This document shows positions 1 to 64,000 of a stretch of 64,000 nt of DNA, piece by piece. Source of the DNA: Gemmatimonadota bacterium (lineage in GTDB: Bacteria > Latescibacterota > UBA2968 > GCA-2709665); the NCBI GenBank assembly GCA_028874335.1, contig JAPPJY010000009.1, positions 1 to 64,000 of the forward strand, given 5' to 3'. A program made the translations under genes and the position numbers. The notes under the pieces were generated by a model, which worked only from the letters and a program-made list of their open reading frames with translations, had not been told where the DNA came from and did no database searches. Position 1 is the stretch's first letter. Each line of letters starts with the position of its first letter.

Positions 1-66
1 TGACCAACGCCGACCGGCGCTTTTGCAGCCGCGCGAAGACCGCTGGGAATTTTAAAACAGCTTCTT
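1..66 (-). repeat. Partial copy of MITE-like repeat family A (A-end)
   Basis: Read on the minus strand, this begins GAAGCTGTTTTAAAATTCCC and continues for about 60 bases almost identically to the left arm of the complete element at 24947-25134. Shared text includes AGCGGTCTTCGC and GCGCCGGTCGGCGTTGG. The copy is cut by the window edge, so its other end is not visible. It ends about 30 bases before the PhyH start codon, so it could influence that gene's expression. Confidence 0.75.
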
Positions 67-7702: not shown

Positions 7703-7787
7703 ATGTATTGCCAGGCAAGGGCGAATCAGCGAGAGCGACTCCAAATCCTGCTATACGTCAATCTGGGTGACAGCGATGCCCGCGGCG

Positions 7788-7875
7788 CTTGACTGACATG
7801 GGTTTCACGTGAGAATCGGCTTCCATCACCGCAATGAAAAAAGTCACCCGCTTTCGCAGGTGCCTTTTTTTATTG
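7788..7875. repeat. Left copy of an 88-bp direct repeat flanking the DUF4143 ATPase
   Basis: This begins CTTGACTGACATGGGTTTC and runs through GTGAGAATCGGCTTCC to a hairpin with a T-tract. It matches 9175-9263 in the same orientation with only scattered differences. The right copy is the 3' flank of tRNA-Leu, so this left copy looks like a duplicated tRNA flank without a tRNA gene. Confidence 0.8.
7843..7871 (+). terminator. Probable terminator after the antitoxin gene
   Basis: CACC and GGTG arms with an inner GC/GC pair around a TTTC loop are followed by CCTTTTTTT. The left arm has one mismatch (GTCACC against GGTGCC) that the right repeat copy lacks. Confidence 0.6.
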
Positions 7876-7918
7876 TGGAGTCCATGCCCGGAGATACCGC
7901 AACAGGGCGGATCCGATC

Positions 7919-9139: not shown

Positions 9140-9174
9140 GGGTATTCGCTGAGCGAAAACGGGTCCACACGGCA

Positions 9175-9263
9175 CTTGACTGACATCGGTTTCGCGTGAG
9201 AATCGGCTACCGTCACCGCAATGAAGAAAGGCACCCGCTTTTCGCAGGTGCCTGTTTTTGTTC
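9175..9263. repeat. Right copy of the direct repeat, at the 3' flank of tRNA-Leu
   Basis: This copy begins CTTGACTGACATCGGTTTC and ends just where the CCA end of tRNA-Leu begins. It aligns with 7788-7875 over its whole length. The two copies are 1387 bases apart. Confidence 0.8.
9230..9258. terminator. Bidirectional terminator between the ATPase gene and tRNA-Leu
   Basis: GGCACC (9230-9235) pairs with GGTGCC (9247-9252). The plus strand continues TGTTTTTG and the minus strand continues TTTCTT. It can therefore end both the plus-strand ATPase message and the minus-strand tRNA transcript. Confidence 0.7.
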
Positions 9264-9350
<87 letters not shown>

Positions 9351-12058: not shown

Positions 12059-12221
12059 GTGTTCTGTCCCGGAAATAAGTTGCCTGAATTCGACCGCCGA
12101 GTCGCCCGTCTCGCAAGGCGCCTGAGCGCAGCCGACCTGCGTATGGTCGGCGAGCGAGGGCAACGTAGCGAGACGGGATGAATCGTCGGTCGAATGGTGA
12201 GGAATTCTTGGGACAGGACAC
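12059..12221. mobile_element. Palindromic MITE with TA target duplication (family B)
   Basis: The left end GTGTTCTGTCCC (12059-12070) and right end GGGACAGGACAC (12210-12221) are inverted repeats. Similarity continues inward through ATTCGACCG and CCCGTCTCGC on both arms, giving a long imperfect hairpin. TA flanks both ends (12057-12058 and 12222-12223), as produced by IS630/Tc1/mariner-type transposases. It encodes no protein. It sits between the short NfeD gene and floA, and its last base plus the TA form the TAG stop of the NfeD gene. Confidence 0.8.
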
Positions 12222-12529
12222 TATTTGGCGTCCTCGGCTTTACGAACCACGATCCGGTTGCCTTCAACCTCGACGACCGTGATCATGCTGTCCCTTTCGA
12301 TAAACTCGCCATCCGCGGCCACGTTGACCCGGCGCCCGTCAATCAGCCCTGTACCCGATGGGCGCAGCGGCGTATAGGCCACCCCTTCTTTTCCCAATAG
12401 CGCTTCATTCTCTCCGGTGGCTACGTAACCGGCCTCGGCCTTTTCGTCGGCGTGGAGTACGAGCCATCTCCACAACACGATAGCAATTGCGACGACAAGT
12501 ACAACCAGAATTGCAATTCCTTCGACCAT
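12221..12529 (-). CDS. Short NfeD C-terminal (OB-fold) membrane protein
   Basis: A 102-aa protein with one N-terminal membrane helix (GIAILVVLVVAIAIVLWRWLV) followed by an NfeD OB-fold domain containing EALLGKEGVAYTPLRPSGTG. It closely repeats the C-terminal domain of the long NfeD protein upstream, including the ending RIVVRK, so it probably arose by partial gene duplication. The ATG at 12529 was preferred over one six codons earlier. The TAG stop is supplied by the adjoining TA-flanked MITE. Confidence 0.85.
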   Translation of the reverse strand: MVEGIAILVVLVVAIAIVLWRWLVLHADEKAEAGYVATGENEALLGKEGVAYTPLRPSGTGLIDGRRVNVAADGEFIERDSMITVVEVEGNRIVVRKAEDAK

Positions 12530-12588: not shown

Positions 12589-13932
12589 CTAACTCGCCTC
12601 TTCGGTCTTTCGGACCACGATCCGGTTGCCTTCAACCTCGACCACCGTGATCCGGCTGTCCTTTTCTATAAATTCGCCTTCGGCAGCCACGTTGACCCGG
12701 CGCCCGTCGATGAGCCCCGTGCCCGCGGGCCGCAGCGGCGTAAAGGCAACGCCTTCCCTGCCAAGTAGCGCTTCATGTTTTCCAGTGGCGATGTACCCCG
12801 CGTCGCTGCGTTCTTCTTCGTGAAGCACCAGCCACTTCCACGCGGACGTGCGCGGCAGCATTTTCAACATCATGCCGCCGATCAGAACCGTCGTCAAAAA
12901 TGCCAGCAGCAGGGGCCGTGCGCCGTCCGCTACTGACTCCCAGGTCCACAGTTCCGGGCGTCCCATCAGGCTCAGAAACAGTCCGGCAAACATCAGAATG
13001 ACGCCCGGAATGGCCAGCACTCCGAATCCGGCAATGAAGAACAGATCGACAACCACCAGAATCACCCCGCCCAGAAAGAGCAGCACTTCCGTCCAGTCAG
13101 CCAGCTTTACCAGCAGATGGCTGCCGAAAAACAGACCCAGGCAGATCAGGCCGATTGTGCCGCCGACGCCCCAACCCGGGCTCTGGATCTCAAAGATCAA
13201 TCCCAGAAAACCGAGCGACATCAGCAGCGAAGCCACAATCGGGTGGGTGAGCCAGCGTACGACCTGCTCCGACCAGTTTACCGACTGGCGGGTTATCCGC
13301 GCGCCATCCAGTTCATAGTGCTTCAGTACGGCCCGAAGTTTCTCAAATTCACCGGTTGCCGTAACCATGGTTTCTGCGATCTTCTTCGCAACCGCCTCGG
13401 TAGTGGTGAGCGTGAGCAGCTTTCCCTTCGGAGCGAGACCCTCTATATCCACGTCTTCGTCGACCATCGCCTCCGCCAGCTCTGGGGGGCGGCCCGTCTT
13501 CTCGGCGGTCGCTTTCATCTCGTTGCGAAAGTAGGAGATCACCTTTTCGCTGGCCTTCTTGCCCTGCATGTCAACGGCCGTGGCCGCGCCGATCGTTCCT
13601 CCCTCCACCATGACGATATGCCGCGTAGCCAGTGAAATCAAAGCCCCGGCCGAGATCGCTCTTGGGTTGATGAAGGCAATGGTCTTCACATCGCTGTACA
13701 AAATCGCGTCCCGGATGACCAGGGCCGCATCCAGTGCGCCGCCAGGGGTGTCAATTTCGAAGACCACCGCGGACACGTCCTCTGCCTCCGCGTCCTCCAT
13801 AACCCGCGAGATAAAGGCGGCCAGCCCCCGCTCGATCGTCCCTCCGATCGGCACGACGTAGACGGATCCTTCCGCCAGGCACACGGACGGCAGAAGCAGG
13901 AGGAACGCAAGAACCGAAAGCGTAACGCGCAT
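12589..13932 (-). CDS. NfeD family membrane-bound serine protease (ClpP-like plus NfeD)
   Basis: A 447-aa protein with a signal peptide (MRVTLSVLAFLLLLPSVCLA) and a ClpP-like protease domain. EIDTPGG is near 59-65, the likely nucleophile is Ser94 in AISAG, and candidate catalytic lysines lie at 125-130. Several membrane helices follow at about 255-380, then a C-terminal NfeD OB domain with EALLGREGVAFTPLRPAGTG. Related enzymes cleave stomatin/flotillin partners at membranes. I chose the ATG at 13932 because it gives a clean signal peptide; earlier in-frame starts add a non-hydrophobic leader. Confidence 0.9.
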   Translation of the reverse strand: MRVTLSVLAFLLLLPSVCLAEGSVYVVPIGGTIERGLAAFISRVMEDAEAEDVSAVVFEIDTPGGALDAALVIRDAILYSDVKTIAFINPRAISAGALISLATRHIVMVEGGTIGAATAVDMQGKKASEKVISYFRNEMKATAEKTGRPPELAEAMVDEDVDIEGLAPKGKLLTLTTTEAVAKKIAETMVTATGEFEKLRAVLKHYELDGARITRQSVNWSEQVVRWLTHPIVASLLMSLGFLGLIFEIQSPGWGVGGTIGLICLGLFFGSHLLVKLADWTEVLLFLGGVILVVVDLFFIAGFGVLAIPGVILMFAGLFLSLMGRPELWTWESVADGARPLLLAFLTTVLIGGMMLKMLPRTSAWKWLVLHEEERSDAGYIATGKHEALLGREGVAFTPLRPAGTGLIDGRRVNVAAEGEFIEKDSRITVVEVEGNRIVVRKTEEAS

Positions 13933-24946: not shown

Positions 24947-25134
24947 GAAGCTGCATTAAAATTCCCAGCGGTCTTCGCACGGCTGCAAAGGCGCCGGTCG
25001 GCGTTGGGCAAATCCACCCAAGAGTGGCGAGGGGCGCGCAGCCACGATACATTAAATATGGGCGGGTTTTCCCGCCTTGACCGCCGCCTTTTCGCTCGCG
25101 CTCGGGAACTCACCGGTAATTTTAATGCAGCTTC
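24947..25134. mobile_element. Complete MITE-like element, family A
   Basis: The 188-bp element is bounded by perfect 17-base inverted repeats, GAAGCTGCATTAAAATT (24947-24963) and its complement (25118-25134). Inside the left end (A-end) is CCCAGCGGTCTTCGC. Inside the right end (B-end) is GCTCGGGAACTCACCGGT. A short hairpin (GGGCGGG, TTTT, CCCGCC) lies near 25050-25075. It has no coding capacity for a transposase. Partial copies occur at 1-66, 37588-37629 and 63966-64000. Open frames through it are artefacts. Confidence 0.8.
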
Positions 25135-37587: not shown

Positions 37588-37629
37588 CGCTCGCGCTCGG
37601 GAACTCACCGGTAATTTCAAAACAGCTTC
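37588..37629 (+). repeat. Partial copy of MITE-like repeat family A (B-end)
   Basis: GCTCGCGCTCGGGAACTCACC is followed by GGTAATTTCAAAACAGCTTC, matching the right arm of the complete element at 24947-25134. No matching left end is evident in the 110 bases upstream, so this copy may be truncated. It ends about 20 bases before the start codon of the next gene. Confidence 0.75.
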
Positions 37630-44257: not shown

Positions 44258-44776
44258 ATGAAGCGTCATCTGGGCATACTCCTGGTCTTCTGTTTGGGAT
44301 GTGGTTCTTCGGATCCCGTGGGGGTGGTCGAACCGACACCTTACCCCACGGGTGCGATGGTGTCGGTTAACGCCGCGGATTTTAACGCGTATCTCGTAGA
44401 CGCCTTTCGTACTTACCAAACGGTGAACGTGATGAATGCCGAATTCGGGTCCATCACCCAGGGTTGGTCGGGCGGCGTGGTTTCGCGGTACTGGACACGA
44501 CAGTTCATGTCCAATCTGATCGCCCGCCTGGAGACGCTTCAGGTTCAGGTGCGTGACATACGGCCGGACGACAGCGAATTACGCCGGATTCACGATTGGT
44601 ACGAGCAGGGTCTGGCCACCTTCCACGAGGCGTTTCTCGCCTTTCTCGACCAGATCGACTTCCCGACGACGGAGGGGATTGAAGGCGTGAACCTGCTGAT
44701 TTTCCGAGGCAACAAACGCATGGATGAATTTCAATTGTTGTTGAGCAATCTTGCAGGAAGGCAAATCCAGTTTTAA
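44258..44776 (+). CDS. Hypothetical lipoprotein
   Basis: A 172-aa protein with a lipoprotein signal (MKRHLGILLVFCLGCGSSD), the lipid-attached Cys being the second of FCLGC. The mature part is mostly helical with RRIHDWYEQGLATFHEAFLAFLDQ. I do not recognise a family. The ATG at 44258 was chosen because it gives a proper lipobox distance. A 98-bp repeat and a strong terminator follow the stop codon. Confidence 0.75.
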   Translation: MKRHLGILLVFCLGCGSSDPVGVVEPTPYPTGAMVSVNAADFNAYLVDAFRTYQTVNVMNAEFGSITQGWSGGVVSRYWTRQFMSNLIARLETLQVQVRDIRPDDSELRRIHDWYEQGLATFHEAFLAFLDQIDFPTTEGIEGVNLLIFRGNKRMDEFQLLLSNLAGRQIQF

Positions 44777-44780
44777 CCAG

Positions 44781-44878
44781 GATTCGTCGTTTTTCGGGGA
44801 CGTTAATTCGAATATTCGCAAGTAGATCAAGGCGATTAAACTGCGGATTACCAGGATACACCTGATCACTGGACGTGA
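44781..44878. repeat. 98-bp direct repeat, copy 1 (family C)
   Basis: This starts GATTCGTCGTTTTTCGGGGA four bases after the lipoprotein stop codon and ends ACGTGA. It aligns without gaps to 47275-47372 with roughly 86% identity by eye. Read on the minus strand, both copies give open frames with the shared peptide IFELTSPKNDES, but there is no start context. Confidence 0.8.
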
Positions 44879-47204: not shown

Positions 47205-47274
47205 CGGGATTCGCACATTGAGTCCGGTCCAACGCCTGGACCACGCATACGAAAGAGGGCCAAAGCATAACCTT

Positions 47275-47372
47275 GATTCGTCATTTTTCGGGGAGGTTAA
47301 TTCGAATATGTGCGAGTTAATAAAGGCGATTAGACTGCTGATTACCAGGATACACCAGGACACTGTACGTGA
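47275..47372. repeat. 98-bp direct repeat, copy 2 (family C)
   Basis: This starts GATTCGTCATTTTTCGGGGA 70 bases after the GWxTD stop codon and ends ACGTGA, aligned without gaps to 44781-44878. The surrounding 47205-47519 contains no supported gene. Confidence 0.8.
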
Positions 47373-63965: not shown

Positions 63966-64000
63966 GAAGTTGTTTTATAATTACCGGCGAGTTCCCGAGC
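63966..64000 (-). repeat. Partial copy of MITE-like repeat family A (B-end, at window edge)
   Basis: GAAGTTGTTTTATAATTACC followed by GGCGAGTTCCCGAGC is the complement of the right arm seen at 25096-25134 and 37588-37629. The rest of the element lies beyond the window. Confidence 0.75.

Follow-up and report, generated by a model that had tools for sequence, protein, structure and literature searches.

Non-autonomous DNA transposons of the miniature inverted-repeat kind (MITEs) are generally regarded as what is left of a single insertion sequence (IS) after deletion. In bacteria, RUP of Streptococcus pneumoniae and Nezha of cyanobacteria are MITEs whose ends link them to an IS (PMC2229807, PMC3049150), and the interior of the BOX element of S. 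pneumoniae comprises from zero to many boxB units, which fold apart from the rest of the element (PMC3049150). The element described here is best read, with a probability of roughly 0.75, as a member of a superfamily of non-autonomous DNA transposons of Latescibacterota, in which a class-wide core folded on one strand is combined with exchangeable ends and a modular tip. Four copies lie at least partly in the window (the whole 64,000-nucleotide stretch of DNA analysed): one is complete, a second complete one begins there and runs beyond it, a third is truncated by the contig boundary, and the fourth is a fragment.

The window element and its copies

The complete element is 188 bp long (24947..25134), and its minus strand is the one with the conserved fold. 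In agreement with the original prediction, its 17-bp inverted ends are perfect (GAAGCTGCATTAAAATT at 24947..24963 on the plus strand, and its identical partner at 25118..25134 on the minus strand), and its two inner ends differ from each other. On the minus strand, the conserved core motif GAGCGCGAGCGAAA (25090..25103) lies in the 5' half of the fold and TTGCAGCCGTGCGAAG (24973..24988, with GCAGCC invariant or nearly so class-wide) in the 3' half. An apical hairpin module (25024..25045, stem GTGGC/GCCAC, loop GAGGGGCGCGCA, or TGCGCGCCCCTC on the other strand) is present or absent at orthologous insertions. The end GAAGCTGCATTAAAATT has four matches in the window at up to three mismatches, against 0.03 expected. 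Three further end copies had been predicted, and the one at 37588..37629 (minus strand) is indeed no more than an end, a 42-bp fragment that has no upstream partner, whereas the other two belong to larger elements. Window base 1 is also the first base of contig C95 (the assembly has 96 contigs and 5.43 Mb), so positions 1..64 (plus strand), which comprise inner sequence and one end, are the 3' part (model positions 125-188) of an element cut by the contig start. Positions 63966..64000 (plus strand) open a complete 210-bp element, of which they are the initial 35 bp; it has two apical hairpins, continues to contig position 64175 and is flanked by TTG/TTA. The window also holds direct repeats at 12221-12473 and 12589-12841 (253 bp, 78% identity, spacing 368 bp) and at 44774-44878 and 47268-47372 (105 bp, 85% identity), and an adjoining direct-repeat pair at 7783-7893 and 9170-9281 (72 bp at 90% and 42 bp at 76%, about 1.4 kb apart).

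Genomes are designated G000 for that of the window, G001 and G003 for its genus, and G004 for its family. The orthologue of the window copy (L061) occupies the same site in G001, with flanks 92% identical, and the window copy is an old insertion. It has no recognisable target duplication (ATA/CAA, or TTG/TAT from the other strand). Two compensated pairs separate it from the orthologue, one of them in the ends (position 8 and its partner, C-G in the window copy and U-A in L061), and the unusual perfection of its inverted repeats reflects the fact that one end changes along with the other.

The expectation of a high genomic copy number was borne out. The 5.4-Mb genome has 183 matches to the end motif at up to one mismatch, against none for a reversed-pattern control, and the 188-bp sequence matches about 40 places. 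The better assembly G003 contains 23 matches, 16 of them complete, in 1.2 Mb, and the number of copies per genome is, very roughly, a hundred. Among the matches listed for an exact pattern of the two core motifs in GTDB r220 genomes are MAGs titled Candidatus Latescibacterota (Plut_88899, NC_groundwater_459 from groundwater, and Baikal-deep-G198), MAGs titled Gemmatimonadota (RHO1_bin_28 and RHO3_bin_7), one contig titled Gammaproteobacteria and one titled Gemmatimonas. The host group would be Latescibacterota in the GTDB sense, Gemmatimonadota and the other titles being presumably older or doubtful labels, and the RHO bins may be of sponge origin, hence from sponge-associated Latescibacterota.

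Target sites and candidate transposases

The boundaries are common to copies genome-wide. Identical 3-bp flanks are present in 108 of 197 distinct complete copies, 101 of them TNA, against two in a shifted control. Comparison of orthologous sites over 1.59 Mb of G003 included 15 comparisons with empty sites and seven with filled sites (five distinct sites). In 12 of the 15, the overlap is exactly 3 bp, the pre-insertion expectation, with exactly one copy of the 3 bp missing in the sister species; L210/L208 provides a clean TTA empty/filled comparison. Most of the insertions tested are not common to both species. Together with the inverted ends, the short length (84-213 bp) and the absence of coding capacity (length differences are not divisible by 3), these duplications uphold the earlier description of the element as MITE-like. 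AT-richness, which is typical of MITEs without defining them, is absent, with a G+C of about 0.52-0.66 in full-length copies. Beside one element (L012 vs L193), about 450 bp present in G000, partly rich in GCAGTCTC repeats, are missing from the G001 orthologue.

In relatives from the class there are IS5-family (DUF4096) elements, about 930-945 bp long, that agree with the element in their ends and 3-bp duplications. Their ends are GAAGCTGTCTGAAAA / GAAGCCGTCTGAAAA (L074 and others), GAAGTTGTTTTAAAAA / GAAGCTGTTTTAAAAA (L087), a second type GAGCCTATACGAAAATT with duplications TTA/TTA and TAA/TAA (L447-L449), and a third type GAGTCCCTAACAAAATGAG (L077). Transposase, the same kind of end and a TNA duplication are found together at L074, L086, L090, L097, L085 and L087. 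The element is not itself an IS of this family, since 188 bp is too short for the DUF4096-type DDE transposase that the relatives' IS carry. The search for a transposase with the same ends, suggested alongside the original prediction, succeeded in part: transposases with the same kind of ends were found only in other genera of the class, and no IS5-type transposase (PF13340, PF13586, PF13359, or profile A2 built on the relatives' transposases) was found in the genus and family genomes G000-G005, although a helper in the same genome is usual, if not required, for a MITE. Collapsed copies at the ends of contigs would probably not have escaped this search, which did recover such contig-end fragments from G009, G036 and G044; MAG binning can still lose multi-copy IS. 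Although the copies vary between sister species, no IS5-type transposase was found in the genus, which leaves the mobiliser there unproven.

Several other candidates were considered. In G000, L136 gave a weak 20-bit match to profile A2, with stops and no ends, and was judged a chance match. L059 and L060 (PF01609), from the same genome, are two unrelated transposases with no matching ends; both genes are intact and IS1380-like in appearance, and L059 is flanked by inverted repeats of about 14 bp. No long-spaced pairs of the element's ends were found in 1.2 Mb of G003, the solo end in L031 is a remnant with no transposase, and solo ends of the G021 type were seen, with no transposase beside the two examined. 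G007, a single-contig genome of the same order, has 49 DUF4096 matches and no detected element of this MITE family. G004 contains at least 38 copies of a 163-bp type (L064, L102, L121 and other contigs), several with identical model scores, which look like a recent burst in a genome with no detected IS5 transposase.

The folded core, its ends and its tip

A covariance model of the genus copies found members in 20 of 60 relatives, also in other families of the class. Members have in common the core CCCGAGCGCGAGCGAAA ... CAAGGC ... GCAACGC ... GCAGCCGCGCGAAGCCCG, the unpaired motifs of which are conserved class-wide, and start with GAAGCYGTCT, GAAGCTGTTTCA, GAGTCCGTACGG, GGGCCTGTCTG, GAGGCCCTAAC or GAGCCTATCCG. 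At least six types of end thus accompany one and the same core, and three of these types are similar to ends of IS5-family elements present in relatives from the class. The window's genomes also contain a second family, with ends CAGTCCGTTGA and with 4-bp duplications in 10 of 32 copies, all NTAN, against none in controls. Its core motifs are recognisable and its covariance-model matches (33-52 bits) are weak to moderate, so that homology to the core of the window element is, on sequence grounds, likely but not proven. Loci of this family include L035:2119-2278, L057:2782-2941 and L346:466-789, and its length classes are 70, 99, 146, 160 and 324 bp, the last of which seems to carry a second, inverted core.

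Complete copies are predicted to form long imperfect hairpins, and homologues across the class keep the hairpin. In the class alignment, from which the structure was itself derived, favouring covariation, 34 of 52 pairs show compensatory double changes, and 247 cells are doubly changed, where shuffles give 69.5 ± 7.7 and slid versions no more than 37. The need for both ends to be recognised accounts for part of the pairing, and conversion between copies could mimic covariation; the interior helices covary as well as the ends. For a strand-neutral set of Watson-Crick pairs, tree-mapped changes comprise 142 to G-U and 63 to A-C, and unpaired sites are roughly symmetrical, with no asymmetry to match. 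The excess is replicated in the class set (18 pairs vs 5, p = 0.011). The event counts depend on a tree built from 160-nt sequences, and safer figures come from the sign tests per pair (p = 0.003 to 0.011). An excess of G-U over A-C on one strand only indicates that it is the fold of one strand that is kept, be it RNA or single-stranded DNA, between which this comparison does not discriminate. Folded as RNA, the window copy has z = -7.6 on the minus strand and z = -4.1 on the plus strand; the strand preference also holds with DNA energy parameters (196 of 197), and the asymmetric bulges are conserved.

The tip differs in 12 of 21 orthologous pairs (161-163 vs 186-213 bp, or 186-188 vs 212-213 bp), and the core stays. 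Core differences between orthologues have a median of 2.5%, against about 10% in flanks and 6.7% between paralogues, in a set chosen partly by model score and hence biased toward conservation. Where the orthologous sites on the G003 side were located from their flanks alone, differences affect 22 of 595 core sites, and 56 would be expected (P = 2e-7); the deficit loses significance (P = 0.15) if the count is restricted to the unselected half of the branch, and constraint on the core in place at orthologous insertions is thus suggestive, not proven. The tip loop is constant (TGCGCGCCCCTC or TGCGCTTGCTC) and the stems vary (GTGGC, GAGGC, GGCGC, GGCAC). This hairpin motif occurs 67 times inside elements, and no matching hairpin loop was found outside them in 1.18 Mb, where the module was sought as a free-standing repeat. 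In L029, the tip is in inverted orientation.

Origin, function and comparison with known systems

In the proposed mechanism, IS5-family (DDE) transposases recognising 15-17-bp ends would move the element in trans; it inserts between genes and a TNA target is duplicated over 3 bp. The core would be the inherited entity, which may have changed transposase systems by exchanging its ends, and its fold would serve the element itself, whether transcribed or in the form of single-stranded DNA, and not the regulation of neighbouring genes. The tip probably changes when copies interact at this point of the hairpin through template switching or gene conversion. An extension of this mechanism, offered tentatively, is that the replicating entity is a structured, mobile RNA (or a single-strand hairpin), surviving across the class on the borrowed ends of any IS5-family transposon and diversifying its tip, once inserted, by the copying of modules from locus to locus.

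Palindromic MITEs are common (PMC10969869, PMC2229807), and the hairpin could be a relic of inverted ends maintained by DNA-level correction (template switching, gene conversion), with no RNA or single-strand function. The exchange of the hairpin tip fits such an ordinary MITE, as does the complementarity in end pairs, which follows from recognition of both ends. This account is nevertheless rather unlikely, since strand-neutral mechanisms cannot yield G-U over A-C in one orientation, and it also has to accommodate the equal covariation of interior helices and ends, the class-wide conservation of unpaired core motifs, and the divergence of orthologous cores at 3.7% vs 9-10% in flanks, half of which signal may be ascertainment. 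The strand preference under DNA energy parameters and the conserved asymmetric bulges would also suit a folded strand acting as single-stranded DNA, for example in replication or transfer, as do integron attC sites, IS200/IS605 and REP hairpins; the target-site duplications and inverted ends point instead to a DDE-type double-strand reaction, which makes this an improbable account.

The original prediction had further suggested, from the location of copies upstream of start codons, a role as promoter or mRNA-stability element, and a domesticated regulatory RNA in neighbour-gene transcripts, kept by host selection as for ERIC and NEMIS, would agree with the apparent constraint on orthologous copies and with the very stable predicted transcript. 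Neither suggestion fits the placement of the elements, which are intergenic, with no preference for 5' or 3' gene ends genome-wide and with 27 in sense and 26 in antisense orientation to genes called by a simple codon-usage script. The lack of orientation bias argues against a general role in neighbouring transcripts, and hence for a fold needed by the element more than by the host. A promoter/terminator scan gave two promoter-like sites (0.4 expected) and one terminator-like site (0.5 expected). As most tested insertions are, in addition, not common to both species, a host-selected regulatory RNA is hardly probable. Finally, nearly all searched genomes are draft MAGs, whose contigs often end inside copies; an assembly or binning artefact is nevertheless a negligible prospect, given the copies in independent assemblies from several studies and habitats and in the single-contig genome G037.

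The preferred reading is thus a transposon superfamily in which, unlike in a deletion product of one IS, the inside appears to outlast the ends, folds on one strand, and sits behind the ends of several transposase systems, making selection for the inside directly testable. The orthologous filled and empty sites provide a natural experiment on how hairpin elements change after landing. As the original prediction had stated, no described family with these ends is apparent: Rfam covariance models gave no match above gathering score for the window copy and four class loci, and the open-access literature contained neither such a family nor a paper linking Latescibacter* with miniature inverted-repeat elements. 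A MITE as such is a known kind; a fold conserved throughout a class, with ends that can be exchanged, is undescribed for bacterial MITEs as far as checked in open-access papers.

Among known systems, IS5-family IS with TNA duplications have the same end sequence type and duplication length as the element, which differs in being non-coding and has no visible interior sequence in common with them. REP/BIME sequences with RAYT, by contrast, involve a Y1 transposase and no target duplication, and the duplications at its target sites set the element apart from them. ERIC and NEMIS/Correia are likewise palindromic, mostly intergenic, and able to form a long stem-loop if transcribed, and NEMIS too comes in two size classes, short and long (PMC2229807); compared by description, they differ from the element, which has no sign of orientation-dependent placement. 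Like the element, RUP (about 100 copies) and Nezha are non-autonomous with IS-like ends (PMC2229807, PMC3049150), but RUP has TA insertion and one IS, whereas here the targets are TNA or NTAN, the ends are of several types, and the genus has yielded no helper IS. BOX, compared by anatomy only, is also interspersed, with IS-like inverted ends, a predicted RNA hairpin and a modular interior (PMC3049150). Its modules are tandem boxB units, whereas the element swaps hairpin modules with changed stems and a constant loop and, unlike BOX, keeps its core class-wide behind several end types.
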